Shown: piece by piece, positions 15,968 through 64,000 of the stretch | Numbering within the stretch: position 1 is the stretch's first letter | Layout of the letters: each line of letters begins with the position of its first letter | Assembly (NCBI RefSeq): GCF_000730165.1 | Contig: NZ_CP022110.1 | Span: 1,867,501-1,931,500 of the forward strand | Length of the DNA stretch: 64,000 nucleotides | Origin: Nitrospirillum viridazoti CBAmc | GTDB lineage: Bacteria; Pseudomonadota; Alphaproteobacteria; Azospirillales; Azospirillaceae | Direction: 5' to 3' | Program-made: the position numbers and the translations under genes | The notes under the pieces: generated by a model | What the model was told of the DNA's origin: nothing | Databases searched by the model: none | What the model saw: the letters and a program-made list of their open reading frames with translations, nothing else

Positions 15968-16828
15968 TCAAGCGACGGCCGCCAGCGCCTCCTCCAACTC
16001 ATAGAATTTGGGCATGTGTTCGGTGGGGATTTCCTTGCGCGCCGCCTCGATGGACACCTGGGGGGCGTAGCCCGCCAGGTGGGCGGTGATGGCAGCCCGC
16101 ACCACATGGCGGAAGCGGTTCTCCTCCTCCGCGATGCCGCGCAGGCGGGCGGCCACCGGCGCCACGATGCAATAAGCCAGGAAGATGCCCATAAAGGTGC
16201 CCACCAGGGCATGGCCGATCAGCCCGCCGAGGACCTCCGGCGGCTCGGTGATCGATCCCATGGTCTTGATGACGCCCAGGACCGCCGCGACGATGCCCAG
16301 CGCCGGCATGCCGTCCGCCATGACAGAAAAGGCGTGCGCGGGGTGCAAATCCTCATGCCGCGCCTTTTCAATCTCCCGTTCCATCAGGGCATCCAATTCC
16401 AGCGGGCTGTCCACACCGGTGGAGAACATGCGCATATAGTCGGTAATGAACTCCACCGTCGCCACGTCGCGCAACACCAGGGGATGAGCGTTGAAAAGAC
16501 TGCTCTCGAACGGCTTTTCGATATGCTGTTCGATGGACAACACACCCTTGGTCTTGATGGATCTCAGCATGCGGTACAGCAGGGCCAGCAGATCCATGTA
16601 CTCGCGCTTGCCGTAGCGGGCGCCCCGAAAGATGCGCTTCACCGCCGCGGTGGAATGGCGGATGACATCGGTGCTGTTGGCGGTGAGGAAGGCGCAGACG
16701 GCGGCGCCACCGATGGTCACCACCTCCCCCGGCAGAGCATCCAGGATAACCGCAATCTTGCCGCCGCCGACTGCGTATGACCCGAACACGCACAGGAACA
16801 CGGCCCCCAGGCCGATCATGGCGAACAT
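15968..16828 (-). CDS. motA: flagellar motor stator protein MotA
   Basis: A 286-residue proton-channel stator subunit of the flagellar motor, in the inner membrane. The N-terminus MFAMIGLGAVFLCVFGSYAVGGG is the first helix, and GKIAVILDALPGEV matches the start of helix 2. The cytoplasmic loop KGVLSIEQHIEKPFESSLF contains the charged residues that engage FliG. Helices 3 and 4 carry the expected prolines in DGMPALGIVAAVLGV and AYCIVAPVAARL. The ATG at 16828 has GGAGAG upstream. No motB is adjacent; in many alphaproteobacteria it lies elsewhere. The next genes on the same strand are padR and a MotA-like fusion. Confidence 0.95.
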   Translation of the reverse strand: MFAMIGLGAVFLCVFGSYAVGGGKIAVILDALPGEVVTIGGAAVCAFLTANSTDVIRHSTAAVKRIFRGARYGKREYMDLLALLYRMLRSIKTKGVLSIEQHIEKPFESSLFNAHPLVLRDVATVEFITDYMRMFSTGVDSPLELDALMEREIEKARHEDLHPAHAFSVMADGMPALGIVAAVLGVIKTMGSITEPPEVLGGLIGHALVGTFMGIFLAYCIVAPVAARLRGIAEEENRFRHVVRAAITAHLAGYAPQVSIEAARKEIPTEHMPKFYELEEALAAVA

Positions 16829-16904
16829 GCCCTCTCCCCATCCCGCCCCGTAACCGGGAATGGCACATTATCAACATATGTAGAGTTTATGAGTCAACAC
16901 GGGC

Positions 16905-16943: not shown

Positions 16944-17972
16944 TCAGGGCTTGGGCTGCTGCTGGGTGATGCAGTGGATGCCGCCGCCGCCGCGCACGAT
17001 GTCCAGCGCCGGGACCTGCACGATCTGGCGGTCGGGGTAGAGGCGGCTGAACAGCTTGGCGGCCTCCGCGTCCATGGGGTCTTCGAAGGCGGGCAGGACC
17101 ACGCCGCCGTTGGCCAGGTAGAAGTTGGTGTAGGACAGTGTCAGGCGCACGCCCGCCTGTTCCTGGCGCGCCGGCGTGCGCAGGGTGACGATGTCCAACT
17201 CCCGCCCCTGGGCGTCGGTCGCCATGGACAGCCGCTCGATATTGTCCTGGAAGGTGTCGAAGTTGGGATCGTCGGGATCGTCCGTAGTCATGGCCAGCAC
17301 CAGGCCCGGGCGGATGAAGCAGGCGATCTCATCGATGTGGCCATCGGTCTCGTCCTGCTCATACCCCCGGCCCAGCCAGATGATCTGGCGGATCCCCAAG
17401 AAATCGCGCAGGTGCCCCTCGATCTCCCCCCGCGTCAGGCCGGGATTGCGGTTGGGGTTCAGCAAGCATTCCTCGGTGGTGATCAGCGTGCCCTCGCCAT
17501 CCACATGGAAGGACCCGCCCTCCATGATCAGGGGCGCCTTGAAGCGGGGAACCTCCAGGCCCTTCAGGATTTCCGCCGCCACCTGGGTGTCGGCCGCGAA
17601 ATCGTCGTAGTTGCGGCCCCAGGCGTTGAAATCCCAGTCCACCCCACCGATGCCGCCCTTGCCATCGATGACGAAGCTGGGGCCGTTGTCGCGGATCCAG
17701 CTGTCGGACAGGGGCACCGGGATGACGCTGACCGGCGCGCCCGAGCACAGGATGGAGGCGTCGGCCACCTCCCCCGGCGGGGCCACGATGGTCACCGGCT
17801 CGAACTGCGCGATGGCCTTGGCCACGGCGGCATAGGCCCGGCGGGCGGCGTCCAGCCCGTTGGGAAATGTTTCCGCCCGGTTGGGCCAGGCCATCCAGCA
17901 GCGGTCGTGCGGGTGCCACTCACCGGGCATGACAAAGCCCGCCGCAGCGGGGGAACCGGGGGTGTAGGTCAT
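16944..17972 (-). CDS. aguA: agmatine deiminase
   Basis: A 342-residue guanidine-modifying enzyme that hydrolyses agmatine to N-carbamoylputrescine and ammonia, a route to putrescine. Key segments are MPGEWHPHDRCWMAWP, SDSWIRDNGPSFV, MEGGSFHVDGEGTLITTEECLLNPNRN, DETDGHIDEIACF (active-site His) and GGGGIHCITQQQP with the nucleophile Cys334. The ATG at 17972 has GGAGGA about 9 bases upstream. It stands at the head of the polyamine region next to a Pot-type importer on the same strand. The partner N-carbamoylputrescine amidase gene is not in the window. Confidence 0.95.
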   Translation of the reverse strand: MTYTPGSPAAAGFVMPGEWHPHDRCWMAWPNRAETFPNGLDAARRAYAAVAKAIAQFEPVTIVAPPGEVADASILCSGAPVSVIPVPLSDSWIRDNGPSFVIDGKGGIGGVDWDFNAWGRNYDDFAADTQVAAEILKGLEVPRFKAPLIMEGGSFHVDGEGTLITTEECLLNPNRNPGLTRGEIEGHLRDFLGIRQIIWLGRGYEQDETDGHIDEIACFIRPGLVLAMTTDDPDDPNFDTFQDNIERLSMATDAQGRELDIVTLRTPARQEQAGVRLTLSYTNFYLANGGVVLPAFEDPMDAEAAKLFSRLYPDRQIVQVPALDIVRGGGGIHCITQQQPKP

Positions 17973-18068
17973 GGCGTCCGATCCTCCACCGCCCCGGATC
18001 GGGGCGGTTGCAAAGAATAGTATTCCGCCTGTGCTACAGGCTGGCAATCAGCGCTTTGGATGAGAGGG

Positions 18069-18899
18069 TTAGACCCGTCCCGCCTGGCTTTCCTCGCGCT
18101 CGCGGATGCGGGCGCGGCGGGCCTCCAGAAAACCCGCCAGGCCGATGCCGGTGGCGACCACCGCCACCACGATGGTGGCCAGCGCGTTGATCTCCGGCTT
18201 CAGGCCCAGACGGATGGAGGAGAAGACGATCATCGGCAGGGTGGTGGAACCGGGGCCGGAGACGAAGCTGGTGATGACCAGGTCGTCCAGCGACAGGGTG
18301 AAGGCCAGCAGCCAGCCCGAGACGATGGCGGGCGCGATGATGGGCAGGGTGATGACGAAGAACACCTTGGCCGGCCGCGCGCCCAGGTCCATCGCCGCCT
18401 CCTCCAGCGAGACGTCCATGCTGACCAGGCGCGACTGGATGACCACGGCCACGAAGGACATGGTGAAGGTGATGTGCGCCAGGACGATGGTCAGCACCCC
18501 ACGTCCCGCCGGCCAGCCGATGAGCTGCTCCGCGCTGACGAACAACAGAAGCAGCGCCAGGCCCATGATGACCTCAGGCATGACCAGGGGGGCGGAGATC
18601 ATGCCGGCGAACAGCGCCCGGCCGCGGAACGCGCCGAACCGGGCCAGCATCAGCCCCGCCAGCGTGCCCAGCACCACGGCGCCGCAGGCGGTGGCGAAGG
18701 CAATGCGCAGCGACAGCCACGCCGCCTCCAGCATCTGCCCATCCTGGATCAGCTCGTGGTACCAGCGCAGGGAAGCGCCGGTCCACACCGTCAGCGAGCG
18801 GTTGTCGTTGAAGGAATAGACCACGAGAAGGACGATGGGCAGGTACAGGAAGGCCAGGCCGACGCCCAGCAGCACCATCGGCAGGCGTGACTTTTTCAT
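18069..18899 (-). CDS. potI: putrescine/spermidine ABC transporter permease, PotI type
   Basis: A 276-residue inner-membrane permease with about six helices. The N-terminus (LAFLYLPIVLLVVYSFNDNRS) is typical of PotI/PotC. The EAA loop is EEAAMDLGARPAKVFFVITLP, and the segment LSLDDLVITSFVSGPGSTTLP is a family marker. It overlaps the potH-like gene by ATGA (18896-18899). Putrescine rather than spermidine preference is suggested by similarity to PotFGHI but cannot be proven. Confidence 0.9.
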   Translation of the reverse strand: MKKSRLPMVLLGVGLAFLYLPIVLLVVYSFNDNRSLTVWTGASLRWYHELIQDGQMLEAAWLSLRIAFATACGAVVLGTLAGLMLARFGAFRGRALFAGMISAPLVMPEVIMGLALLLLFVSAEQLIGWPAGRGVLTIVLAHITFTMSFVAVVIQSRLVSMDVSLEEAAMDLGARPAKVFFVITLPIIAPAIVSGWLLAFTLSLDDLVITSFVSGPGSTTLPMIVFSSIRLGLKPEINALATIVVAVVATGIGLAGFLEARRARIREREESQAGRV

Positions 18900-19888
18900 C
18901 GGGCGGCCCCCTTGTCCTGGTCGCGGCCCTGGAAGTGCTGGAAGATCATGATGGGGCCCACCAGGAAGGCCAGCAGGGCGATGGCGACGGCCGAGGCTGA
19001 AGGCCAGTCACGGCTGTTGAAGAACAGGTTCCACAGCTCACGCCCGATCATCAGCGTATCGGATCCGCCCAGCAGCGAGGGGATGACGAACTCACCCACC
19101 GCCGGGATGAACACCAGCAGCGAGCCCGCGACGATGCCCGGCAGCGACAGCGGCAGGGTGATGGTCAGGAACGCCTTCCAAGGCTTGGCGCCCAGGTCGG
19201 CCGCCGCCTCCAGCAGCGTGTGGTCCATCTTCTCCAGCGTCGCGTACAGCGGCAGGATCATGAAGGGCAGGTAGGAATAGGTGATGCCGATATAGACCGC
19301 GAGGTCCGTGTACAGGATCTTCAGCGGTTCATGGATGATGCCGAGGCTGAGCAGCAGGTTGTTCAGCAGCCCCTCGTCCTTCAGGATGCTCATCCACGCG
19401 TAGACGCGGATGAGGAAGCTGGTCCAGAACGGCAGGATGATCAGCATCAGCAGCGGCCCGCGCCGCTTCTCCGGCGCCGTGGCGATGGCATAGGCCATGG
19501 GATAGCCGATGAAGAGGCAGCACAGCGTCGAGACGAAGGCGATCTTCAGTGAGTTCAGATAGGCCAGCACGTACAGGTCGTCATCGAACAGCGCCTGGAA
19601 TCCGCTGAAGCGGATGTGCACGTCCAGCCCGCCGTCCACCCACTCGATCAGCTTGGTGAAGGGCGGGATGCCCACCGCCGGCTCCGCCACGCTGATCTTG
19701 AGCACGATCAGGAAGGGGATGAAGAAGAACAGGACCAGCCAGGCATAGGGGCCCAGGATGACGCCACCCCGGCCGGTGAGGCCCAGGCGTCGGGTAACGC
19801 GCAGCACGCGGTCCTTCAGGGTGCGCGGCGCCACGGACGGCGGGACAGCGGACGGCTGCGGTGCGGCGGAAGGCGGAGGTACGGGCAA
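18896..19888 (-). CDS. potH: putrescine/spermidine ABC transporter permease, PotH type
   Basis: A 330-residue permease. After a Pro/Ala-rich cytoplasmic N-terminus it has the helix PYAWLVLFFFIPFLIVLKIS, the motif PFWTSFLIRVYAWMSIL and the EAA loop EAAADLGAKPWKAFLTITLPLSLPG. The start reads as TTG at 19888 with a strong GGGGAGGGG site 8 bases upstream, which is unusual. The ATPase gene ends 16 bases before it on the same strand. It pairs with PotI in the importer. Confidence 0.9.
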   Translation of the reverse strand: MPVPPPSAAPQPSAVPPSVAPRTLKDRVLRVTRRLGLTGRGGVILGPYAWLVLFFFIPFLIVLKISVAEPAVGIPPFTKLIEWVDGGLDVHIRFSGFQALFDDDLYVLAYLNSLKIAFVSTLCCLFIGYPMAYAIATAPEKRRGPLLMLIILPFWTSFLIRVYAWMSILKDEGLLNNLLLSLGIIHEPLKILYTDLAVYIGITYSYLPFMILPLYATLEKMDHTLLEAAADLGAKPWKAFLTITLPLSLPGIVAGSLLVFIPAVGEFVIPSLLGGSDTLMIGRELWNLFFNSRDWPSASAVAIALLAFLVGPIMIFQHFQGRDQDKGAAR

Positions 19889-49807: not shown

Positions 49808-51805
49808 TCAAAGCGTCACGCCAGCCTTCTTCAGAGCCTGCTGCATCATGTTCATGCTGTCCTCGTTCATGCGGAACTGGATGCGCACGACACCGTCGAC
49901 GATGCTGGCGACACGGCCGGGGATGGCATGGTCGCCCAGGCCGCCCACCAGCAGGTCGTCGCCCGGCTTGTTGGCCATGTGGCCGATGCGCGCGGACAGG
50001 CCGGCGGCCGACAGGTCGATGGTGCGGCCGGGGTAGACCGGGCCCGGCTTTCCCGTGGCCATGCACTGCACGCTGATGGCCAGGTCGGCCGGGATGCGCT
50101 CGAACTGGCGGCGGTCGCCGGCCCGTTCCATGGCGCCCAGGAACTCCTCCACCTCCATCTGCAGCTGTTCCGCCTGGGCGGACAGCTCGCCCGCCGCCGA
50201 ATGCAGCTGGCTGGAGGCGCTGAGCGTGAACTGGGCGCTTTCCTCCACCGTGTTCATGTTGCCCGCCACCTCTGCCGTGCGGGCCGCCGCCTCCTGCACG
50301 TTGCGGCTGATCTCGGTGGTGGCCGCCCCCTGCTCGGTGACAGCCGAGGCGATGGTGGCGGAGTTGCCGCCCATCTGCTCGATGACGTCGGTGATGTAGG
50401 TGATGATGGACACGGCATCGGCGGCGGCCGTCTGCACCGCGGCGGCTCGGTTGGCGATGTCCTCCGTCGCCTTGGCCGTCTGGCCCGCCAGCGACTTGAC
50501 CTCATGCGCCACCACGGCGAAGCCCTTGCCGGCCTCACCCGCCCGCGCTGCCTCGATCGTGGCGTTCAGCGCCAGCAGGTTGGTCTGCCCGGCGATATCG
50601 TTGATCAGCTGCACCACCGTCTGCACGCCGGCCGCGACATCCGACAGCTCCGCCATCACGGTGCTGGCCTTGCGTGCCTCCTCCACCGCGCGGGCGGTGG
50701 TGGCGGCGGTGAATTCCACCTGGCGGCCGATTTCCGAGCTGGACACCGTCAGCTCTTCCGTGGCGGCGGCCACGGTCTGGGCGTTCTGGTTGGCGGCGGT
50801 GGCGCCCGTGGCCACCGTCACCGCCAGTCCACTGGTGATTTCCGCCTGTTCGCGCAGGCCGCCAGAGGTCGCCTCCAGCTCCGTCGCGGCGGCAGCGACC
50901 GAGCGCAGCTTGCCCGCCACCATGGCCTTGAAGTCGCGCACCAGGACCTCCAGCGCGTCATGCCGGCGCTGCTGCGCCTCCCGCGCGGCCTCCTGCTCCT
51001 CCTCCAGCCGGCGGTTGGCCAGGGCGTTGTCGCGGAACACCTGCAGCGCGCGCGCCATCTCGCCCAGTTCATTGGGCGCCTCGGTCCCGCTGATGGTGAC
51101 GGCCAGGTCGCCCTGGGCCAGGCGGCGCATGTCGCCCGTCAGCTCACCCAGGCTGCGCGACAGGCTGCGGGCGATGACGAAGGATAGCGAGCCCACCAGC
51201 AGCAGGGCGATGACGCCCTCGACCACGCCGCCCATGACCAGTGCCCGCCCTTGCGCCTGCACGTCGTCCAGGTAGACGCCGGAACCCAGGACCCAGCCCC
51301 AGGCCGGGACCAGGGTCACATAGGACAGCTTGTCCACCGGTTCCGTCTGGCCCGGACGCGGCCACTTGTAGGGCACGAAGCCGTGGCTCTGCGGCCCTGT
51401 CGCCATGGCGACGAAGTCGCGGAACATGTAGGTCCCGGCGGGGTCCTTGAAGTCGGTCATGTCCTTGCCCTCCAGATCCGGACGGCTCGGGTTCATGACC
51501 AGGACACCCTTGGTGTCGTTGACAAAGACGTATTCACCGGCGAAGCGCAGGGCCCTGAGGGCCGCCAGGGCCGCCGCTTGGGCGTCGGCCCTGGGCAGGG
51601 CACCCTGCTTTTCCTTCTGGATGTAGGCCTCGACGATGGTCTGCGCGGCCCCCACCGCGTCCTGCGCCATGTCGCGGCGATTCTCGTAAAGCTGCGTGCG
51701 CTGCTGCGCCACGCCGATGGCAATGTAGACCAGTGCCGCCAGCACGGCGACGCCCACCAGAACCCAAAGCCGCTGATTGATCGTCCGGTCATTGAACCAG
51801 CGCAT
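49808..51805 (-). CDS. methyl-accepting chemotaxis protein with Cache sensor and C-terminal PilZ domain
   Basis: A 665-residue chemoreceptor. The first helix spans residues 13-31. A single-Cache periplasmic domain follows ([43 protein letters not shown]). A second helix lies near 188-208, then HAMP and the signalling tip [21 protein letters not shown]. The last 100 residues form a PilZ domain: [15 protein letters not shown] carries the RxxxR motif and [12 protein letters not shown] the D/NxSxxG motif that bind cyclic di-GMP. This would tie chemotaxis to c-di-GMP level. GAGGGGGG precedes the ATG, inside a small hairpin. Confidence 0.93.
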
Positions 51806-52131: not shown

Positions 52132-52328
52132 GGCTCTGTATATCCAGGTTGGGTAAGTCGGCGTCGGATCAATACTCGCGCACCCCCGGGTGCGGGCGGC
52201 TCCAGAACGGGGTGGCCCTCCTGGGACACAAAGTACTTCCGCTGTTTCCATAAGGGGCGCGGCGGGGGGTTGAAGACCCACGTGGCTGTGGGTGCGCCCA
52301 GAAGGGGCGTGGTGGTGCCGAGTGTGAA

Positions 52329-52345
52329 ACATCTCAAAGAGATGT
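52329..52345 (+). promoter_or_regulatory. small hairpin just before the ribosome-binding site of the giant gene
   Basis: ACATCTC and GAGATGT flank AAA. The hairpin ends 5 bases before the GGAGAGG ribosome-binding site. Confidence 0.4.
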
Positions 52346-52359
52346 GATCGGAGAGGGTG

Positions 52360-55300
52360 ATGGTTTCGTCTATCGGTACTGTACCGCCATCGCAGATCGC
52401 GGCTTATTCGACAGCGGCTATTCAGGCCCTGACCACTCAGGACGTCGCGGCCCTTACCACCGCCCAGATCGCTGTTCTTTCATCCACCCAGGTCACGGCC
52501 TTCACGGCCAGCCAGATGGTGTTCAGCGCCCAGCAGCTGCAGGCGTTCAGCGATGAGGATATCGCCGCCTTCAGCCCCGCCGATCTCGAAGCGCTGAAGT
52601 CCAACCAGGTGCAAGCCCTGACCTCCAGCCAAGTGGAGGCGATCACCGTCAGCCAGCTGTCGGGCCTGTCCACCACCGCCATCCGCGATTTCAGCCGCGC
52701 CCAGGTGGGCTACTTGTCCACCGGCCAGCTGAACGCCCTGTCCACCGGCCAGATCCAGGCCCTCAGCACGGCGCAGGTGCCCGGGTTGACGGCCAACCAG
52801 ATTTCGGGCCTCAGCACCGCCAACCTGTCGGCGCTCAGCAGCAGCCAGGTGGCGCTGCTGACCACCGCCCAGGTCCGGGCGCTGACCACCGATCAGCTGA
52901 ACGCCCTGACGACCGCGGATATGCGGGAATTCTCCGGTATACAGTTGGCGGCACTCAGCACCGATCAGGTGGTGGCGCTCAGCACCCGCAACCTCTCGGC
53001 CCTCAGCGCCGGCCAGATGCTGGGCCTGACCGCAGCCCAGGTCAACGTCTTCACCACCAGCCAGATGGCCGGCCTGACCACCCAGCAGTTGGCCAGCCTG
53101 AGCGCCACCCAGATGCGGGTGCTGGACAACGCCCAGCTGAACGCGCTCAGCACCGATGATTTCCGCGCCCTGACCACGGCGCAGATCGCCAACCTGACGA
53201 CGGAACAGATTGCAGGCCTGAGCGTCGCCAACCTGTCGGCGCTGAACAGCGCCCAGGTCGCCCGGCTGAGCCAGGCCCAGGTCCAGGCCCTGACCACGGA
53301 CCAGCTGAACGGCCTGACCTCCGCCGATGTGCGGGAGCTGTCCGCCACGCAGATTCTGCAGCTGTCCACCGCCCAGCTCGCCGGCCTCAGCACCAGCGGC
53401 GTGGCCGCCCTGACCACCAACCAGACCTTGCTGATGTCGGCCGCGCAGATCCGGGCGCTCAGCACCGCCCAGCTGAACGCCCTGGCCACGGCCGACGTGC
53501 GCCTGTTCAGCGCCCTGCAGTTGGCCGCCCTGACCACCGACCAGATGGGCGCCCTGGCCACCACCAGCCTGGCGGCGTTGAGCGCCACGCAGGTGACACA
53601 GCTGACGACGGCGCAGGTCGGCGCCCTCAGCTCCAGCCAGGTACAGGTCTTCTCCTCGGCACAGCTGGCCGCCCTGAGCACGGGGCAGATTCGCGCGCTG
53701 GGCGCGGATGGCCTGGCCGCCTTGGATTCGTCCCAAGTCGCGCGCCTGAGCTCGGCCCAGATCCGGGCGCTCAGCACCGACCAGCTGAACTCCCTATCCA
53801 CGGCCGACATCCGGGCCCTGACCTCCGGCCAGTTGACGGCCTTGACCACGGCGCAGCTGGCCAACCTGGAAACGGACAGCCTGGCCGCCCTGTCCACCAG
53901 CCAGGTGACGCAGTTGGCCGCCGCCCAGGTCAAGGGGCTAAGCAGCGACCAGCTGAATGCCTTGGGCACCGCCGACATCCGCGCCCTGACCACGGCGCAG
54001 ATCGCCGGCCTGACGACCGACCAGGTGGGCAACCTGACCACGGCCAACGTGGCGGCGCTGTCCTCCGTCCAGGTGGCGCAGCTGACGTCGGCCCAGATCA
54101 AGGTACTGACCACGGAGCAGCTGGGCGCCCTGCCCTCTGCCGACGTCCGCGCCTTCACTTCCGGCCAGCTGCGGGCGCTGACCACGGACCAGCTCTCGGC
54201 GTTGAGCGGCAGCGCCATTTCGGGCTTCACCACCACCCAGCTGAACGGCTTCACCTCCGACCAGCTGTCGGCGCTGACCACCGACCAGATGGCCGGCCTG
54301 ACCACCCTGCAGGTGGCCGGCTTCGGCTCCGCCCAGGTGCGGGGCCTGACCAGCGACCAGCTGAACGCCTTCACCACCGCCGACATCGCGGCGCTGACCA
54401 CCGCGCAGCTGTCGGCACTAAGCACGGATCAGCTGTCCAACCTCACCACCCTGAACGTGGCGGCGCTGACCAGCGTCCAGGTTGCGCGCCTGACGACCGC
54501 CCAGTTGAAAGCGCTGTCCAGCGACCAGATCAACGCCTTCGACACGGCGGACGCCCGCGCGCTGACGTCCACCCAGGTGAAGGCGCTGACCACCGACCAG
54601 GTGGCGGGCCTCAGCACCGCCAACCTGTCGGCCCTGACCTCCGCCCAGATCGCGAGCCTGACGGCCGACCAGGTGGGCGCGCTCAGCACCAGCCAGGTGG
54701 CGAACCTGGCCACCAACCAGGTGACGGGCCTGTCCAGCCTGCAGCTGAAGGCGCTGAACAGCGACCAGATCAACGCGCTCAGCACCGGCGACGTGCGCGT
54801 CCTGGCCACCGCCCTGACCGCAGCCCTGACCACCGACCAGGTCGCGGGCCTCAACACCGACAGCCTGGCGGCCCTCAGCACCGCGCAGGTGGCCGCGCTG
54901 TCCAGCGGCCAAGTCCGGGCGCTGGGCAGCGACCAGTTGAACGCCTTGTCCACGGCCGACATCCGCGCCCTGACCACCGCCCAGATCGGGGTGCTGACCA
55001 CCGACCAGCTGTCCACCCTCAGCACCGCCACCCTGTCAGCCCTCAGCAGCACGCAGATCAACCGCCTGTCGGCCACTCAGGTGCGATCACTGGGCAGCGA
55101 CCAGCTTAATGCGCTGAACAGCGCCGATCTGCGGGAATTCACCTCCACCCAGATCGGGCAGCTGACCACCGACCAGCTGTCGGGCCTGACCACGGCCAGC
55201 CTGTCCAGCCTGTCCAGCACGCAGATGCTGGGCCTGACCACGGCACAGGTGACGGCGCTGACCACCGACCAGGTGGCGGGCCTGGCGACCAGCCAGGTGG

Positions 55301-58300
55301 CGGGCCTGACCACGGCCCAGGTCCAGGCGCTGAACAGCGACCAGTTGAACGCCCTGTCCGCCGCCGACATCCGCGCCCTGTCCACCGCCCAGATCGGGGT
55401 GCTCAGCACCCTCCAGCTCACCAACCTGGGCACCGACGCCCTCAACGCCCTGTCGACGGCCCAGGTCACGCGCCTGACCAGCACCCAGCTGCGGGCGCTC
55501 GGCAGCGACCAGTTGGGCGCATTATCGACCGCCGACGTGCGGGCGCTGGGCTCCCAGCAGCTGGCGGCCCTGACCACGGACCAGCTGTCGACCCTCAGCA
55601 CCGCCAACCTGTCGGCGCTCAGCAGCACCCAAGTCATCGGCCTGTCCAGCGCGCAGCTGCGGTCCCTGACCAGCGACCAGCTGAACGCCCTGTCCACGGC
55701 CGACATCCGGGAATTCACCTCCGCCCAGATCGCGCAGCTGACGACCGACCAGGTGTCGGCCCTGGCGTCGGATAATCTGGCGGCACTCAGCACCAGCCAG
55801 GTAGCGGGCCTCAACAGCGCCCAGCTGCGCTCGCTCACCAGCGACCAGTTGAACGCCCTGGGCAGCGCCGACATCCGGGAGTTCAGCTCCGCCCAGCTGG
55901 CGACCCTGACAACCGACCAGATTTCCACCCTGGGCACCGCCACCGTGGCGGCGCTGTCGACCACGCAGCTGGCCGGCCTGGGCACGGCCCAGGTGGGGTC
56001 GCTGACCACCGACCAGGTCGGCGCACTCACCACCCTGCAGGTGTTCAAGCTCAGTACGGCCCAGTTTCGGGCGCTCAGCAGCGACCAGCTGAACGCGCTG
56101 AACAGCGCCGACGTGCGCATCCTGACCACGGCGCAGGTGGGGGCGCTGACCAGCGACCAGCTGTTGTCCTTCAGCAGCGACACGATGGCCGCCCTCAGCA
56201 CCGCCCAGGTGGCCAGCCTGTCGGCCGGCATCCTGAACGCACTGACCAGCGACCAGTTGAACGCGCTGAACACGGCCGACATCCGCGCCCTGACCACCGC
56301 CCAGGTGGCGGCACTCAGCACCAGCCAGCTGTCAACGCTCAGCACCGACAACACCGCCGCCCTCACCACCGCCCAGGTAGCCAAGCTGTCGACCACCCAG
56401 GTGGGCGCGCTGACCAGCGACCAGCTGAACGCGCTGTCCACCGCCGACGTCCGCACGCTCAGCAGCGCGCAGCTGCGGGCGCTCGGCACCGACCAGATCG
56501 CCGCACTGAACTCCACCAACCTATCGGCCCTCGGCAGCGCCCAGGTCACGGGCCTGTCCAGCACCCAGGTCCGGGCGCTGACCAGCGACCAACTTAACAC
56601 CCTGACCACCGCCGACATCCGCGAGTTCTCCTCGGCCCAGGTGGCGCAGCTGACCACGGACCAGGTGTCGGCCCTGGCCACCGCCAACCTGTCGGCGCTG
56701 ACGACCCAGCAGCTGGCGGGGCTCGGCACCGACCAGCTGGCGATACTGACCAGCGACCAGGTGGCGGGCCTGACGACCCAGCAGGTGACGGGCCTCAGCA
56801 CCAGCCAAGTACGGTCGCTGACCACCGACCAGCTGAGCGCCTTCTCCACCGCCGACGTGCGCGCGCTGACCACGGCCCAGCTGGCGGTGCTGTCGTCCGA
56901 CCAGCTGTCGGCCCTCGGCACCACCGCCACCAGCGTGCTGACCACCGCCCAGGTGGCGCAGCTGACCACGGCGCAGGTCCGCGCCCTGACCAGCGACCAG
57001 CTGAACGCCCTGTCCACGGCAGATATCCGCGCGCTGACGACGACGCAGGTCGCGGTGCTGACCACCGACCAGCTGTCGACCTTGAGTTCCACCAACCTGT
57101 CGGCGCTCAGCAGCAGCCAGGTGGGCAAGCTGTCCAGCGCCCAGGTGCAATCGCTGACCAGCGACCAGCTGAACAGCCTGACCACCGCCGACCTGAGGGA
57201 ATTCACGTCGGCCCAGCTCGGCGCCCTGACCAGCGACCAGGTGTCCAACCTCAGTTCGACCAACCTGTCGGCCCTGGCCAGCAACCAGGTGGTGGGCTTC
57301 ACCAGCACCCAGGTGCAAGCGCTGACCACCGATCAGCTCAACACGCTGACGACCGCCGACATCCGCGAATTCACCTCCGCCCAGGTGGGAACCCTCACCA
57401 CCGATCAGCTGGCGGGCCTTTCCACCGGCGTGGTGACGGCCCTCAGCACCACCCAGCTGGCCGGCCTGACCACCGCGCAGCTCGGGGCCGTCACCAGCGA
57501 CCAGGTGGCGGTGCTGTCCACGCTGCAGGTGGCCAACCTGGCGACCGCCCAGGTACAGGCGCTGACCAGCGATCAGCTGGGCGCGCTCAACAGCGCCGAC
57601 GTGCGCGCCCTGACATCCGGCCAGCTGGCGGCCCTCTCGACCGACCAGATCATCACCCTCGGTACCGGCACCGTCGCCGCGCTCAGCACCTTGCAGGTGA
57701 CCCGCCTGTCCACCGGCCAAGTGCAGGCGCTGACCAGCGACCAGCTGAACGCCCTGTCGACCGCCGACGTGCGCGCCCTCACCTCCGCCCAGGTCGCGGC
57801 GTTGACGACGGAGCAGCTGTCCACCCTGGGCTCCGACAACCTGTCGGCGCTCGGCAGCGCCCAGGTCAACAAGCTGTCCAGCAGCCAAATCCAGGCGCTG
57901 GGCTCTGATCAGCTGAACACCCTGACCACCGCCGACATACGGGAGCTCACGTCCGCCCAGCTGTCGGCCCTGACCACCGACCAGCTATCCAACCTCAGCT
58001 CCGACAACCTGTCGGCCCTGGCCAGCAACCAGGTGGTGGGCTTCACCAGCGCCCAGGTGCGCGTCCTGACCACCGACCAGCTGGGCGCGCTGACCTCCGC
58101 CGACATGCGGGAGTTCACCTCCACCCAGGTGCAGGCCCTGACGACCGAGCAGATCGCCGGCCTCAGCACGGCGGCGGTTTCGGCGCTGACGACCACGGAA
58201 CTGGGCGGCCTGACATCATCCCAGCTGGCGGCGCTGACCACCGACCAGGTCGCCAGCCTGACCACGCTGCAGGTGTCCAAGCTTTCCACGGACCAGATCC

Positions 58301-61300
58301 AGGCGCTGAACAGTGACCAGCTGAACGCGTTGACGCCAACCGACGTCCGGGCGCTGACCACGGCACAGCTGCTGGCGCTGACCACCAGCCAAGTGTCAGC
58401 GTTGGGCAGCGACACGGTGGCGGCCCTCAGCACCCTGCAGGTGGGCAAGCTTTCCACCGACCAGGTCCAGGCGCTGAACAGCGACCAGTTGAACGCCCTG
58501 TCCACGGCCGACGTGCGCGCCCTCACCTCCACCCAGGTGGCGGTGCTGACGACGGATCAGCTGTCCACCCTCAGCTCCACCAACCTGTCGGCGCTGGGCA
58601 GCGCCCAGGTGAACAAGCTGTCCAGCGCCCAGGTCAGGGCCCTGACCACCGACCAGCTGGACGCGCTGACCACCGCCGACATCCGTGAATTCACCTCCGC
58701 CCAGCTGTCGGCCTTCACCACCGACCAGCTTTCCAACCTGACCTCCGATAACCTGGGCGCCCTGGCCAGCAACCAGATCGTGGGCTTGACCAGCACCCAG
58801 CTGCAGGCCATCAGCAGCGACCAGCTGAACACGCTGTCGACCGCCGACATGCGGGAATTCACGTCGGCCCAGGTGTCGGCGCTGACCACGGACCAACTGG
58901 CCGGCCTGAGCACCACCAACTTCACCGCGCTGTCGACCCTGCAGCTGGGCGGGCTGACCTCCGGCCAGGCGGCCGCGCTGACCACCGATCAGGTGGCCGC
59001 GCTCAACACCCTGCAGGTGTCCAAGCTCAGCACCGGCCAGGTGCAGGCGCTGAACAGCGACCAGCTGGGCGCGCTGTCGACCGCCGATATCCGCGCGCTG
59101 GGCACCGCGCAGCTGGCGGCCCTGACGACGGCCCAGGTGTCGGCCCTGGGCAGCGACACCGTGGCGGCGCTGTCCAGCGTCCAGATCAGCAGGCTCGGCA
59201 CCGACCAGGTGGCCGCGCTGACCAGCGACCAGCTGAACGCCCTGGGCTCCATCGACGTCCGTGCCCTTACCACCGCCCAGGTCGGCGCGCTCGGCACCGG
59301 CCAGTTGTCGACGCTGACGGCCGCCACCCTGTCGGCGCTGACCAGCGCCCAGATCGGGAAGCTCAGCACCGACCAGGTGGCCTCGTTGACCAGCGACCAG
59401 CTGAACGGCCTGACCACGGCCGACATCCGCGAGTTCACCTCGGCCCAGCTGTCGGCCCTGACCACGGACCAGCTGTCCAACCTCAATACCGGCAATTTCG
59501 CGGCCCTGACCACCACGCAGCTGGCGGGCCTGACGGGCGCGCAGATAACGGCGCTGACCACCGCCCAGACCAGCACCCTCAACACGCTGCAGGTGGCGAA
59601 GCTCAGCACCGCGCAAACCCAGGCGCTGACCAGCGACCAGCTGAACACCCTGAGCAGCGCCGACGTGCAGGCGCTGACCACGGCGCAGTTGGCGGCGCTG
59701 ACCACCGACCAGCTGTCCAACCTGGGCACGGACGCGGTGGCGGCCCTCAGCAGCGCCCAGGTATCCCGGCTGTCGACCGGCCAGATTCAAATCCTGAACA
59801 GCGATCAACTGAACGCGCTGACCACCCTGGATGTTCGCAATCTGACCACCGCCCAGGTCGCGGTCCTGTCCACCGCCCAGCTGTCGGCCCTGGGCTCGGA
59901 CAATCTCTCGGCGCTCAGCAGCACGCAGGTCACCCGGCTGTCCAGCGACCAGCTGCGGGCGCTGTCCAGCGACCAGCTGAACAGCCTGACCACCGCCGAC
60001 ATGCGGGAATTCACCTCCGCCCAGCTGACCAGCCTGACCACCGACCAGCTGTCCGCGCTCACCACCGGCAACTTCGCAGCACTGACCACCACCCAGCTGG
60101 GCGGGCTGACCAGCGCCCAGGTGGCGGCGCTGACCACGGACCAAACGGAGGCCCTCAGCACGCTGCAGGTGGCCAAGCTGACCACCACGCAGGTGCAGGC
60201 GCTGACCAGCGATCAGCTGAACACGCTCAACACCGCCGACGTGCGCGCGCTGACCACCGCACAGCTGGGCGCGCTCAGCACGGATCAGCTGTCCAGCCTG
60301 AGTAGCGACACCGTGGCGGCGCTAACTACTCAGCAGGTGGCGAAGCTGACCACCGATCAGGTGCGGGTGCTGAACACCGACCAGCTGAACGCGCTCAACA
60401 CCGCCGACATCCGGGCATTGACAACGGCGCAGTTGCAGGCGCTCAGCACCAGCCAGCTGTCCAGCCTGAACACCGACGGCACGGCCGCGTTGACCAGCGC
60501 CCAGGTGGCCAAGCTGACCACCGACCAGGTCGCAGCGCTGACGACCGACCAGCTGAACGCGCTCAACACCGCCGACATCCGCGCCCTGACCACGGCCCAG
60601 GTCGCCGCCCTGACCACAGCGCAATTGGCCGCGCTCAGCACCGACAACGCCGGCGCCCTGACCAGCGCCCAGGTGTCCAAGCTCGGCACCGACCAGGTGC
60701 GCGCGCTGACCAGCGACCAGTTGAACGCCTTCAGCACCATCGACATCCGTACCCTGACCACGACCCAGGTGGCGGCCCTGACCACGGCCCAGCTGTCGAC
60801 GCTGGGCACCACCAACCTGGCGGCGCTCAGCACCGCCCAGCTGGGGGTGCTGACCACCGATGAAGTCCAGGTTCTGACCACCGACCAGCTGCCGGGCCTG
60901 ACCACGCAGCAGGTGGCCGGCCTGAGCACCGCGCAGCTGCAGGCGCTAGGCAGCGATCAGCTGAACGCGCTGACCACCACTGAGGTGCGGGCGTTGAACA
61001 GCCTGCAAGTGGCGGCGCTGTCCACCGCCCAGGTGTCGACGCTCAGCACCGACACCGTGGCGGCGCTGACCACAGCCCAGGTGATCCGCCTGACCACCGA
61101 CCAGGTGCGGGCACTGACGACCGATCAGTTGAACGCCCTGACCACGGCCGACGTGCGGTCGCTGACGACGGCTCAGATCACGGTGCTGGGCACGGCCCAG
61201 CTGTCCGCCCTGAACAGCGACAGCGTGGCGGCCCTGACCACCGCCCAGGTGGCACAGCTGACCACCGCCCATGTGGGGGCGTTGACCACCGGCCAGCTGA

Positions 61301-62322
61301 ACGCACTGACCACCGCAGACGTGCGGGCCCTGTCGACGGCGCAGCTGAACAGCCTGTCGACCGACCAGGTGCTGGCGCTGGACACCCTGCACGTGGCGGC
61401 GCTGACCAGCGCGCAGGTGTCCCAGCTGGGCACCGGACAGATTCACGTGCTGACCAGCGACCAGCTGGTGGCCCTGCCCACGGCGGACATCCGCAGCCTG
61501 ACCTCAGCCCAGATCGGGGCGCTGACCACCGATCAACTGGCCAATCTCGGCACGGCCAACCTGGCGGCCTTCACCACCGGCCAGCTGGCGGGGCTGACCA
61601 GCGACCAGTTGAACGCGCTGACCACCGACCAGCTGGGGGCGCTGACCACGGCCCAGGTGACGGGCCTGAGCACCGCGCAGATCCAGACCCTGACGACGGC
61701 CCAGCTGAACGCCCTGGCCACGGCCGACGTGAGGGTGCTGACCACCGCGCAGGTAACCGCCCTGACGACGGACCAGCTGCTGGCGCTGAACAGCGACAGC
61801 GTGGCGGCGTTGAGCAGCACCCAGGTGTCCAAGCTGACCACGGACCAGGTGCAGGTGCTGCTCAGCGACCAGTTGAACGCCCTGCCCTCCGCCGACCTGC
61901 GCGCCCTGACCACAGCCCAAATCCGGGTGCTGAGCACGGCGCAGCTGGACGGGCTGACCACAGACCAGATGCAGCGGCTGTCCACCACCCAGGTGGCGGC
62001 GCTGGCCACCAGCCAGGTGGCGGGCCTGACCACCGACAACCTGTCGGCCCTGACCAGCGACCAGGTGCAGCGGCTATCCACCGCGCAGCTTCAAGCCTTG
62101 ACCACCAGCCAGGTGCACGCGCTGACCACCGATGACGTGCGGGAGCTCAGCACCAGCCAGGTCGCGGCCTTGACCACCGCCCAAGCCTACGCGCTGACCA
62201 CCGATCAGCTGTCCACCATGGGCCAGAGACTGGCTCTCGCCGTCACCGGCGCCCAGGTCGCTGCCTTCTCCAGCGACCAGGTGAACGCCTGGATGAACAG
62301 CATCCTGGGTACCCCCAGCTGA
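52360..62322 (+). CDS. giant octapeptide-repeat protein (3,320 residues), unknown function
   Basis: One uninterrupted frame of 3,320 codons made almost entirely of a degenerate 8-residue repeat. The consensus is roughly A/G-L-S/T-T/S-x-Q/D/N-V/I/L-x, for example ALTTAQVA, ALTTDQLN, ALSTADIR. About 413 units can be laid end to end from residue 9 to Trp3311, with only one obvious 7-residue unit near the N-terminus. Composition is dominated by Ala, Leu, Thr, Ser, Gln, Asp, Val and Asn. Pro and aromatics are rare, and no Cys was noticed. I see no signal peptide, membrane helix, RTX repeats, LPxTG motif or autotransporter domain. Each unit has a hydrophobic pair and an S/T-x-x-Q/D helix-cap-like pattern, so a solenoid of very short helices is one guess. 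GGAGAGG precedes ATG 52360; GTG 52357 is the alternative. An adhesin, surface-layer, filament or molecular-ruler role is possible but unproven. Confidence 0.9.
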   Translation: MVSSIGTVPPSQIAAYSTAAIQALTTQDVAALTTAQIAVLSSTQVTAFTASQMVFSAQQLQAFSDEDIAAFSPADLEALKSNQVQALTSSQVEAITVSQLSGLSTTAIRDFSRAQVGYLSTGQLNALSTGQIQALSTAQVPGLTANQISGLSTANLSALSSSQVALLTTAQVRALTTDQLNALTTADMREFSGIQLAALSTDQVVALSTRNLSALSAGQMLGLTAAQVNVFTTSQMAGLTTQQLASLSATQMRVLDNAQLNALSTDDFRALTTAQIANLTTEQIAGLSVANLSALNSAQVARLSQAQVQALTTDQLNGLTSADVRELSATQILQLSTAQLAGLSTSGVAALTTNQTLLMSAAQIRALSTAQLNALATADVRLFSALQLAALTTDQMGALATTSLAALSATQVTQLTTAQVGALSSSQVQVFSSAQLAALSTGQIRALGADGLAALDSSQVARLSSAQIRALSTDQLNSLSTADIRALTSGQLTALTTAQLANLETDSLAALSTSQVTQLAAAQVKGLSSDQLNALGTADIRALTTAQIAGLTTDQVGNLTTANVAALSSVQVAQLTSAQIKVLTTEQLGALPSADVRAFTSGQLRALTTDQLSALSGSAISGFTTTQLNGFTSDQLSALTTDQMAGLTTLQVAGFGSAQVRGLTSDQLNAFTTADIAALTTAQLSALSTDQLSNLTTLNVAALTSVQVARLTTAQLKALSSDQINAFDTADARALTSTQVKALTTDQVAGLSTANLSALTSAQIASLTADQVGALSTSQVANLATNQVTGLSSLQLKALNSDQINALSTGDVRVLATALTAALTTDQVAGLNTDSLAALSTAQVAALSSGQVRALGSDQLNALSTADIRALTTAQIGVLTTDQLSTLSTATLSALSSTQINRLSATQVRSLGSDQLNALNSADLREFTSTQIGQLTTDQLSGLTTASLSSLSSTQMLGLTTAQVTALTTDQVAGLATSQVAGLTTAQVQALNSDQLNALSAADIRALSTAQIGVLSTLQLTNLGTDALNALSTAQVTRLTSTQLRALGSDQLGALSTADVRALGSQQLAALTTDQLSTLSTANLSALSSTQVIGLSSAQLRSLTSDQLNALSTADIREFTSAQIAQLTTDQVSALASDNLAALSTSQVAGLNSAQLRSLTSDQLNALGSADIREFSSAQLATLTTDQISTLGTATVAALSTTQLAGLGTAQVGSLTTDQVGALTTLQVFKLSTAQFRALSSDQLNALNSADVRILTTAQVGALTSDQLLSFSSDTMAALSTAQVASLSAGILNALTSDQLNALNTADIRALTTAQVAALSTSQLSTLSTDNTAALTTAQVAKLSTTQVGALTSDQLNALSTADVRTLSSAQLRALGTDQIAALNSTNLSALGSAQVTGLSSTQVRALTSDQLNTLTTADIREFSSAQVAQLTTDQVSALATANLSALTTQQLAGLGTDQLAILTSDQVAGLTTQQVTGLSTSQVRSLTTDQLSAFSTADVRALTTAQLAVLSSDQLSALGTTATSVLTTAQVAQLTTAQVRALTSDQLNALSTADIRALTTTQVAVLTTDQLSTLSSTNLSALSSSQVGKLSSAQVQSLTSDQLNSLTTADLREFTSAQLGALTSDQVSNLSSTNLSALASNQVVGFTSTQVQALTTDQLNTLTTADIREFTSAQVGTLTTDQLAGLSTGVVTALSTTQLAGLTTAQLGAVTSDQVAVLSTLQVANLATAQVQALTSDQLGALNSADVRALTSGQLAALSTDQIITLGTGTVAALSTLQVTRLSTGQVQALTSDQLNALSTADVRALTSAQVAALTTEQLSTLGSDNLSALGSAQVNKLSSSQIQALGSDQLNTLTTADIRELTSAQLSALTTDQLSNLSSDNLSALASNQVVGFTSAQVRVLTTDQLGALTSADMREFTSTQVQALTTEQIAGLSTAAVSALTTTELGGLTSSQLAALTTDQVASLTTLQVSKLSTDQIQALNSDQLNALTPTDVRALTTAQLLALTTSQVSALGSDTVAALSTLQVGKLSTDQVQALNSDQLNALSTADVRALTSTQVAVLTTDQLSTLSSTNLSALGSAQVNKLSSAQVRALTTDQLDALTTADIREFTSAQLSAFTTDQLSNLTSDNLGALASNQIVGLTSTQLQAISSDQLNTLSTADMREFTSAQVSALTTDQLAGLSTTNFTALSTLQLGGLTSGQAAALTTDQVAALNTLQVSKLSTGQVQALNSDQLGALSTADIRALGTAQLAALTTAQVSALGSDTVAALSSVQISRLGTDQVAALTSDQLNALGSIDVRALTTAQVGALGTGQLSTLTAATLSALTSAQIGKLSTDQVASLTSDQLNGLTTADIREFTSAQLSALTTDQLSNLNTGNFAALTTTQLAGLTGAQITALTTAQTSTLNTLQVAKLSTAQTQALTSDQLNTLSSADVQALTTAQLAALTTDQLSNLGTDAVAALSSAQVSRLSTGQIQILNSDQLNALTTLDVRNLTTAQVAVLSTAQLSALGSDNLSALSSTQVTRLSSDQLRALSSDQLNSLTTADMREFTSAQLTSLTTDQLSALTTGNFAALTTTQLGGLTSAQVAALTTDQTEALSTLQVAKLTTTQVQALTSDQLNTLNTADVRALTTAQLGALSTDQLSSLSSDTVAALTTQQVAKLTTDQVRVLNTDQLNALNTADIRALTTAQLQALSTSQLSSLNTDGTAALTSAQVAKLTTDQVAALTTDQLNALNTADIRALTTAQVAALTTAQLAALSTDNAGALTSAQVSKLGTDQVRALTSDQLNAFSTIDIRTLTTTQVAALTTAQLSTLGTTNLAALSTAQLGVLTTDEVQVLTTDQLPGLTTQQVAGLSTAQLQALGSDQLNALTTTEVRALNSLQVAALSTAQVSTLSTDTVAALTTAQVIRLTTDQVRALTTDQLNALTTADVRSLTTAQITVLGTAQLSALNSDSVAALTTAQVAQLTTAHVGALTTGQLNALTTADVRALSTAQLNSLSTDQVLALDTLHVAALTSAQVSQLGTGQIHVLTSDQLVALPTADIRSLTSAQIGALTTDQLANLGTANLAAFTTGQLAGLTSDQLNALTTDQLGALTTAQVTGLSTAQIQTLTTAQLNALATADVRVLTTAQVTALTTDQLLALNSDSVAALSSTQVSKLTTDQVQVLLSDQLNALPSADLRALTTAQIRVLSTAQLDGLTTDQMQRLSTTQVAALATSQVAGLTTDNLSALTSDQVQRLSTAQLQALTTSQVHALTTDDVRELSTSQVAALTTAQAYALTTDQLSTMGQRLALAVTGAQVAAFSSDQVNAWMNSILGTPS
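52384..62292 (+). repeat. 24-bp coding tandem repeat array (about 413 units) with higher-order cassettes
   Basis: The array encodes the octapeptide repeat. Units group into cassettes that begin with DQLN-A-L-x-x followed by A-D-I/V/M-R-A/E-L/F, usually every 7 units (56 residues, 168 bases) and sometimes every 10. About 48 such DQLN/ADxR pairs can be counted by eye. Neighbouring units differ widely in synonymous codons, so the array looks old rather than freshly expanded. Confidence 0.85.
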
Positions 62323-62526: not shown

Positions 62527-64000
62527 TCAGGCGGCCTTGCCGCTCTTCGCGATGATTTCGTCGGCCACGTTCTTCGGCACCGGGTCGTAGTGCGAGAACT
62601 CCATGGTGTAGGAGCCGCGACCCGAGGTCATGCCGCGCAGCTGACCGATGTAACCGAACATTTCGGACAGCGGCACATGGGATTCGACGGCGATGTTGTG
62701 GCCACGCTCCAACTGGCCCAGCACTGTGCCGCGACGACGGTTGATGTCGCCGATCACGTCACCCAGGTAATCGTCCGGAACCACCACTTCGACCTTCATC
62801 ACCGGCTCCAGCAGGATCGGACCGGCGGTCCGGATGCCTTCGCGGAAGCAGGCCTTGGCGGCGATTTCGAACGTCAGGGCGTTCGAGTCCACTTCGTGGT
62901 ACTTACCGTCCAGCAGCGTGGCTTCGAAGTCCACGGTCGGGTAGCTGGCGAGGACGCCGTCTTCCTTCTGGACTTCCAGGCCCTTGCCCACCGACGGGAT
63001 GTATTCGCGCGGCACGGTGCCGCCGACGACCTTGTCCACGAAGGTGAAGCCAGCGCCGCGTTCCTTCGGCTCGAAGCGGATCTTCACTTCGGCGAACTGG
63101 CCCGAACCGCCGGTCTGCTTCTTGTGGGTGTAGGTGTACTCGACGGTCTTGGTGATCGTCTCGCGGTAGGCCACCTGCGGGCGACCCATCACACCTTCCA
63201 CGCCGAACTCGGTACGCATACGGTCGAGCGTCACTTCCAGGTGCAGCTCGCCCATGCCGCGCAGCAGGGTCTGGCCGGTGTCGCGGTCCGTTTCCAGACG
63301 CAGGGACGGGTCCGCGCGGACCATCTTGCCGATGGCGGCGCCGAACTTGTCCTGGTCGGCACGGTTCTTCGGCTCCACCGACACGCTGATCACGGGGTCG
63401 GGGAAGCGCATGCGCTCCAGCACCACCGGGGCGGTGGCATCGCACAGGGTGTCACCGGTATCCGTCTCGGCCAGCGAGACGAAGGCCACGATGTCGCCCG
63501 CGCGGGCTTCTTCCAGGTCGTTCGCTTCCTTGGCGAACATTTCCACGATACGGCCGATGCGCTCACGCTTGCCGCGGGTGGTGTTCAGCAGGGAGGTGCC
63601 CTTGGCGACGACGCCCGAGTAGACGCGCACGAAGGTCAGCGAACCGTACTTGTCGTTGATGACCTTGAAAGCCAGACCGGCGAAGGGCTCGTCGTCCGAC
63701 GACTTGCGCTCGCCGTTCGGGTTGCCGTCCGGGTCCACGGTCTTGATGGCCTCGACGTCCGTCGGCGACGGCAGGAAGGCGACGACCGCGTCCAGCAGCT
63801 GCTGCACGCCCTTGTTCTTGTACGAGGAACCGCACAGGACCGGGGTGAAGTCGCCCTTCAGGGTGCCGAGACGCAGGCATTCCTTCAGCACGGCGGGGGC
63901 CGGCTCTTCACCGGACTCCAGGTACTGCTCCATGGCCGCGTCGTCCTGCATCAGGCAGGTGTCGATCAGCTCGGCGCGGTACTCGCCAACCTTGCTCAGC
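62527..64000 (-). CDS. fusA: translation elongation factor G (partial, 5' end outside window)
   Basis: The C-terminal 490 or so residues of EF-G, the GTPase that drives ribosome translocation. Visible parts are the end of the G domain (LCGSSYKNKGVQQLLDAVVAFLPSP), domain II (FVRVYSGVVAKGTSLLNT), domain III (LRLETDRDTGQTLLRGMGELHLEV), domain IV (GRPQVAYRETI, HKKQTGGSGQFAEV) and domain V (GDINRRRGTVLGQLERG, SEMFGYIGQLRGMTSGRGSYTMEFSHY). The N-terminal P-loop part lies beyond the edge. A terminator follows at once, with no tuf gene behind it, which is unusual if this is the str-operon copy. Confidence 0.97.
   Translation of the reverse strand, partial: LSKVGEYRAELIDTCLMQDDAAMEQYLESGEEPAPAVLKECLRLGTLKGDFTPVLCGSSYKNKGVQQLLDAVVAFLPSPTDVEAIKTVDPDGNPNGERKSSDDEPFAGLAFKVINDKYGSLTFVRVYSGVVAKGTSLLNTTRGKRERIGRIVEMFAKEANDLEEARAGDIVAFVSLAETDTGDTLCDATAPVVLERMRFPDPVISVSVEPKNRADQDKFGAAIGKMVRADPSLRLETDRDTGQTLLRGMGELHLEVTLDRMRTEFGVEGVMGRPQVAYRETITKTVEYTYTHKKQTGGSGQFAEVKIRFEPKERGAGFTFVDKVVGGTVPREYIPSVGKGLEVQKEDGVLASYPTVDFEATLLDGKYHEVDSNALTFEIAAKACFREGIRTAGPILLEPVMKVEVVVPDDYLGDVIGDINRRRGTVLGQLERGHNIAVESHVPLSEMFGYIGQLRGMTSGRGSYTMEFSHYDPVPKNVADEIIAKSGKAA

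Follow-up and report, generated by a model that had tools for sequence, protein, structure and literature searches.

Giant octapeptide-repeat proteins of Nitrospirillum viridazoti as possible glycosylated solenoids exported by type I secretion

Introduction

What could a bacterium use a protein for that consists almost entirely of one octapeptide? The question is raised by a 64,000-nucleotide stretch of the Nitrospirillum viridazoti CBAmc genome (the window, to which positions without a contig label refer), in which a single open frame at 52360..62322 of the plus strand encodes 3,320 residues with a computed mass of about 338 kDa. A preliminary description, made from the sequence alone, had reported an octapeptide register kept over nearly the whole frame and guessed a solenoid of very short helices, and it recognised neither a secretion motif nor a described function. 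Here the gene is compared with its paralogues, its orthologues and more distant relatives.

Results

Frame and repeat array

The plus-strand frame runs without interruption from 52348 up to a stop at 62322, and a Shine-Dalgarno-like GGAGAGGG, read directly at 52350-52357 (+), precedes the ATG at 52360. The repeat array (52384..62292, +) has 413 units and extends from residue 9 to Trp3311, with five units in residues 9-48, a 7-residue unit in residues 49-55 (52504..52524, +) and 407 units in residues 56-3311; all others are eight residues long. The mean in-register unit score is 15.9 bits, far above the best of 200 shuffles (-11.5), and at least 8 bits were reached by 390 of the 408 eight-residue stretches from residue 56 on, the tail being among the 18 exceptions. 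The claim of one 3,320-codon frame in register was exact. The unit starts with T (.47) or S (.32), then T (.59) or S (.33) and a variable residue, followed by Q (.73) or D (.12), by L (.40), V (.39) or I (.14), by a second variable residue, and by A (.53) and L (.90). As an addition to the earlier observations, the units are grouped into blocks of 7 (168 nt) and of 10: among the 43 spacings between DQLN-type (DQLNAL) units, 30 measure 7 or 10 units. The protein contains no Cys, one Trp, three Tyr, ten Pro and 40 Phe, so that "aromatics nearly absent" was slightly too strong. It has 24 N-x-S/T sequons, fewer than the approximately 35 expected. Many long antisense frames, of up to 750 residues (55077-57329), lie on the minus strand between 52437 and 62081; they are expected from a GC-rich repeat and were not counted as genes.

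Family assignment and distribution

The Pfam family PF20080 (ALTTAQ_rpt) matches the protein with E = 0 and 2208.5 bits in 124 stretches, against a curated cut-off of 26.4 bits. Its repeat unit is the same as that of the giant protein, and the model says nothing on partners. CAAP1 (144.7 bits), LRR_EndoS (39.7) and EF-hand_11 (27.1) also exceeded their whole-protein cut-offs with no stretch passing singly, and these scores were taken as summed weak compositional matches. An NCBIfam search returned no family up to E 1. Leucine-rich repeats have the unit LxxLxLxxN/C with a strand; 0 such motifs and no modelled strands were found, and LRR_EndoS passes by summing only. There were 0 matches to the GGxGxD nonapeptide of RTX proteins and 0 to an LPXTG anchor, which was looked for as a sign of membership in the serine-rich repeat adhesins. 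Ice nucleation protein, an annotated name in Cereibacter, is not among the six Pfam families listed up to E 1, and the models are helical.

A literature search, with most subscription papers and all bioRxiv preprints outside its scope, found no paper naming ALTTAQ, HeliScrew or PF20080 and, among papers on GT41 with type I secretion and on octapeptide solenoids, no description of the present system. The preliminary statement that no function was known agrees with the literature found, although the repeat itself was already known as PF20080. Assignment to a well-studied repeat family with a known role, which would have spoken against that description, came half true: the family exists, and its role is undescribed in the literature found.

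Repeat matches were obtained in 16 of 398 genomes of a phylum sample (E 1e-8), in 11 of 59 relatives (E 1e-10) and in 7 of 7 Nitrospirillum genomes (E 1e-6), each count including the own genome; at E 1e-6, 1 of 14 control genomes (Caulobacter vibrioides) matched as well. Among 72,556 named plasmid records, 58 matched (Rhizobium, Shinella, Cereibacter, Pseudomonas and others), and the annotated labels of their proteins are hypothetical, "heme utilization" or "ICE nucleation" protein. One C-terminal pattern, DIAA..(5-6)..FT.TQ[LV]..M[ST].AQ..[AS]LF[LM], recurs in Cereibacter and Rhodovulum proteins and in those of the Niveispirillum type (G017, G023); Rhodovastum has a variant of it. Repeat proteins with ORF lengths of 5,432 aa (G428:C1, about 2815.9-2832.2 kb) and 2,710 aa (L110) have similar non-repeat endings with VDGT and NDG, unlike the end of the window protein.

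Predicted fold

Both ends of the protein were modelled with AlphaFold2, using alignments built from window segments only. Residues 1-400 gave a mean pLDDT of 94.9 and a pTM of 0.83, and residues 2920-3320 gave 91.3 and 0.78, with the last 30 residues falling to about 70 and then 43; this confidence rests on few, self-similar sequences, and a high pLDDT is no proof. Nearly every unit contains one helix of 3-6 residues, the tail has two longer helices, and there are no strands. A degenerate unit (residues 3288-3295, 62221..62244, +) lies in a longer modelled helix with lower confidence. The best solved chain by sequence is 9zem, "HeliScrew4" (E 1e-16, 108 residues aligned), which, judging by its name, is apparently a designed protein. 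It shares with the giant protein eight-residue units of the type ALTPEQIA, but has 120 residues and is no natural giant. Among the matches listed, 49 further solved chains have E 2e-5 or weaker, many of them leucine-rich repeat proteins; 9zem is absent from the results of the fold searches. The protein is thus predicted to be a solenoid with one short helix per eight residues; both of the confident models, and the 9zem match as well, are in line with the earlier guess of very short, S/T-capped helices.

Three giant genes behind one leader

The 7.38 Mb genome (four contigs) holds three giant repeat genes: the window copy, one at C1:1.34 Mb (2,037 aa when counted from the shared start) and one on C4 (3,477 aa). 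Compared with the head of the window protein (residues 1-130, 52360..52749, +), those of the C1 and C4 copies are 58% and 64% identical. Random repeat segments are 50-51% identical on average and at best 58% and 64%, so the head identity says little by itself. The motif SQMVFS..QLQAFS, which encloses the 7-residue shift in the window protein and both paralogues, is the clearer sign of kinship. The tails of the C1 and C4 copies, 42% and 54% identical to that of the window protein (62140..62319, +), do not rise above background. This tail, a candidate type I secretion signal, ends in F-S-x-DQ-x-NAW-x, and all three proteins end in DQ.NAW.

Upstream of the window gene lies a structured 5' leader (52277..52345, +) with putative hairpins at about 52277-52292, 52294-52310 and 52329-52345. 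Six Nitrospirillum genomes contributed three giant genes each to an alignment of the 130 bases 5' of the start; of these 18 genes, which form three groups, each of close relatives, a pattern search located 13, and the other five were taken by position. A structure with three hairpins and a closing stem was drawn by hand and selected on the very sequences that were then scored. In it, 94.6% of cells were paired (shuffles 91.8%), 21 cells were changed on both sides (7.3) and the covariation score was 0.191 (0.141), values reached by 0 of 500 shuffles in each case. Less favourable were the pairs changed on both sides (6, reached by 28 of 500 shuffles) and the further pair types (12, reached by 484 of 500). 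Slid versions of the structure paired to only 30-57%. The second hairpin pairs to only 81.5% because the C4-type leader is shifted. The core consensus has three matches in the genome, one per giant gene, and none reading backwards; a covariance model found three sites in each of six of the seven Nitrospirillum genomes, none in G005, and one weak match (E 0.016) in 28 other genomes. Rfam gave no match. All three giant genes of the genome stand behind the same structured leader, which is absent elsewhere in the genome. Head motif, DQ.NAW end and leader link the window copy with that on C4. In G005 the only repeat frames seen are weaker and shorter ones (643 and 1,269 aa; C4:569512-574165), there is no leader match, and the repeat gene may have been disrupted.

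Nei-Gojobori estimates of dN/dS from comparisons with three syntenic orthologues were.028/.152,.022/.179 and.172/.518 (ratios of about 0.12-0.33); for three neighbouring genes, with the first of these species as partner, they were.025/.120,.012/.150 and.024/.112. The five internal gaps (192; 192, 80, 32 and 24 residues) are all multiples of eight, and the first comparison shows one extra residue at the very C-terminus. Because the gene is under purifying selection, its translation is likely, and the objection that the frame is not translated is improbable.

Neighbourhoods of the repeat genes

The window gene is flanked by a divergent chemoreceptor gene (49808..51805, -; Pfam domains Cache, HAMP, MCPsignal and PilZ) and a convergent gene of the elongation factor G family (62527..64000, -), which extends past the window end. 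Neither a GT41 gene nor type I secretion (ABC+HlyD) genes lie near the window copy or the copy at C1:1.34 Mb. Downstream of the C4 copy, on its strand, come a 218-residue gene with no Pfam match and then a TPR+GT41 gene (OGT/FlmG-type); upstream of this copy (L010) are a gene with a phage tail-collar domain and one for a Rep3-type replication initiator (16589-16876 and 17526-19013).

Loci of relatives were scanned with profiles built from five proteins for GT41 and four each for ABC and HlyD. In a first sample from outside the genus, GT41 occurred at 11 of 18 loci, against 0.6 expected from gene counts, and strong ABC+HlyD at 7 of 18. Four positives (G017, G023, G026, G027) had contributed to the profiles; without them GT41 was found at 7 of 14 loci against 0.49 expected, for which a simple Poisson model gives a P of about 8e-8. 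On named plasmids, GT41 was present at 7 of 12 loci and ABC+HlyD at 4 of 12, two of these four with a more distant transporter type. Of 46 genome loci from a different collection, 31 lie outside the genus and 15 within Nitrospirillum; GT41 was found at 12 of the former and 3 of the latter, and ABC+HlyD at 4 of the 31. GT41 was thus not found at 7 of 18, 5 of 12 and 19 of 31 loci, in samples that may share species and are not independent, with some loci cut by contig ends or inside the repeat gene, and with an ORF filter that may miss genes (the repeat ORF itself was uncalled in G250, G173 and G407:C1). GT41 genes also occur elsewhere in genomes with the repeat. On plasmid A of Cereibacter sphaeroides 2.4.1 (L106), HlyD, ABC, an "O-linked acetylglucosamine transferase" and the repeat gene ("ICE nucleation protein") adjoin, with rfbABCD (rhamnose) and sulfotransferase genes near. 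Plasmid repeat genes of Rhodovastum (L108) and Pseudorhizobium (L115) lie near flagellar export genes and flagellins, respectively. Judged by sequence, the absence of a secretion motif was a fair reading; the genes around the repeat genes of relatives, however, point towards glycosylation and type I secretion.

In the own genome, the nearest relative of the repeat-linked transporter, with 42% identity against at most 33% for any other, is encoded at C3:313 kb. This C39-like ABC and HlyD pair lies near family 4 glycosyltransferase, methyltransferase and RgpF-type genes, with no repeat gene in 20 kb around it. In the ABC tree it falls outside the main repeat-linked clade, between this clade and a group that joins four more distant repeat-linked transporters with three others of the own genome. 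The transporter subclass is present also in genomes in which no ALTTAQ gene was detected, and in G010, G011 and G020 the repeat is present and such a transporter absent at E 1e-110; co-occurrence alone therefore proves nothing.

Discussion

The sugar-attaching and export genes that often adjoin relatives suggest a surface protein that is exported and coated with sugar. We give an even chance to the reading that the giant protein is a solenoid rich in Ser/Thr that receives O-linked sugars in the cytoplasm and is exported through type I secretion, maybe as an adhesive or matrix fibre. Each octapeptide would form one short capped helix, the units stacking into a continuous, screw-like solenoid, and the three giant genes would share one RNA leader. 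By analogy with related loci, a cytoplasmic GT41-type glycosyltransferase probably adds sugars to many Ser/Thr residues; the C-terminal end would be recognised by a type I secretion system, and the protein, exported to the medium or the cell surface, may act there as a long adhesive or matrix fibre. The window copy would depend on action in trans, by the C4 glycosyltransferase and by a transporter that is perhaps the one at C3:313 kb. We infer cytoplasmic glycosylation, export, action in trans and a surface role from the genomic context. The fuller proposal, a widespread Gram-negative counterpart of the serine-rich repeat adhesins in which a linked GT41 enzyme glycosylates ALTTAQ solenoids before type I export, with one RNA leader for all three genes in Nitrospirillum, we put forward tentatively, as somewhat more doubtful than probable.

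The nearby glycosyltransferases may instead serve surface polysaccharide or flagellin, the giant surface protein being exported without GT41 glycosylation. The rfbABCD and sulfotransferase genes of Cereibacter and the RgpF-type genes at C3 fit polysaccharide too, GT41 genes are found elsewhere in these genomes, and the window copy has none nearby. On the other hand, GT41 adjoins the repeat gene in several unrelated genomes, and such enzymes are known to glycosylate proteins, as described for FlmG (PMC7591256) and HMW1C-like enzymes (PMC3012730); we regard this explanation as unlikely. An intracellular or motility-linked scaffold, such as a filament or a flagellum-associated protein, would explain the lack of a secretion motif, the flagellar neighbours in Rhodovastum and Pseudorhizobium and the chemoreceptor upstream of the window gene; the chemoreceptor, however, is transcribed divergently, and ABC+HlyD genes accompany 15 of 61 loci in three possibly overlapping samples, which makes such a role rather improbable. 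That the array is a functionless slippage product, open by chance, would suit a simple repeat whose length varies between species by whole units. We give this very little credence, since dN/dS is well below 1 and similar to that of three neighbouring genes, and synteny, head and leader are conserved in the genus.

The glycosylated, exported solenoid offers a testable role for a Pfam repeat that has no described one and is annotated as "hypothetical", "heme utilization" or "ICE nucleation". If true, Gram-negative surface biology would gain a glycosylated, type I exported fibre, and protein design a very small natural solenoid unit. What is new here is the genomic context of the repeat genes; the PF20080 family itself was already known.

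Several known systems resemble parts of this picture. Serine-rich repeat proteins are LPXTG-anchored and glycosylated by other enzymes. They are Gram-positive, depend on accessory Sec and are unrelated to the ALTTAQ giants. If our reading is right, the likeness lies in a repeat protein that carries O-linked sugars on Ser/Thr and has an export route of its own (PMC6973325). BapA of Paracoccus denitrificans is likewise a large protein of extremely simple repeat and a predicted type I secretion substrate, encoded beside type I genes and needed for biofilm; its repeats are Asp-Ala dipeptides, and the accessible part of PMC5588039 mentions no glycosyltransferase. In the Haemophilus HMW1C/HMW1 pair, a GT41-type enzyme also has a large exported adhesin as substrate (PMC3012730, PMC3983070), but the modification is N-linked and export follows two-partner secretion, whereas sequons are fewer than expected here (24 versus about 35). 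Caulobacter FlmG, according to PMC7591256, joins TPR and glycosyltransferase domains and O-glycosylates flagellins in the cytoplasm; it shares with the proposed system a cytoplasmic TPR-glycosyltransferase acting on an exported protein and differs in that its substrate is flagellin, exported by the flagellar system.
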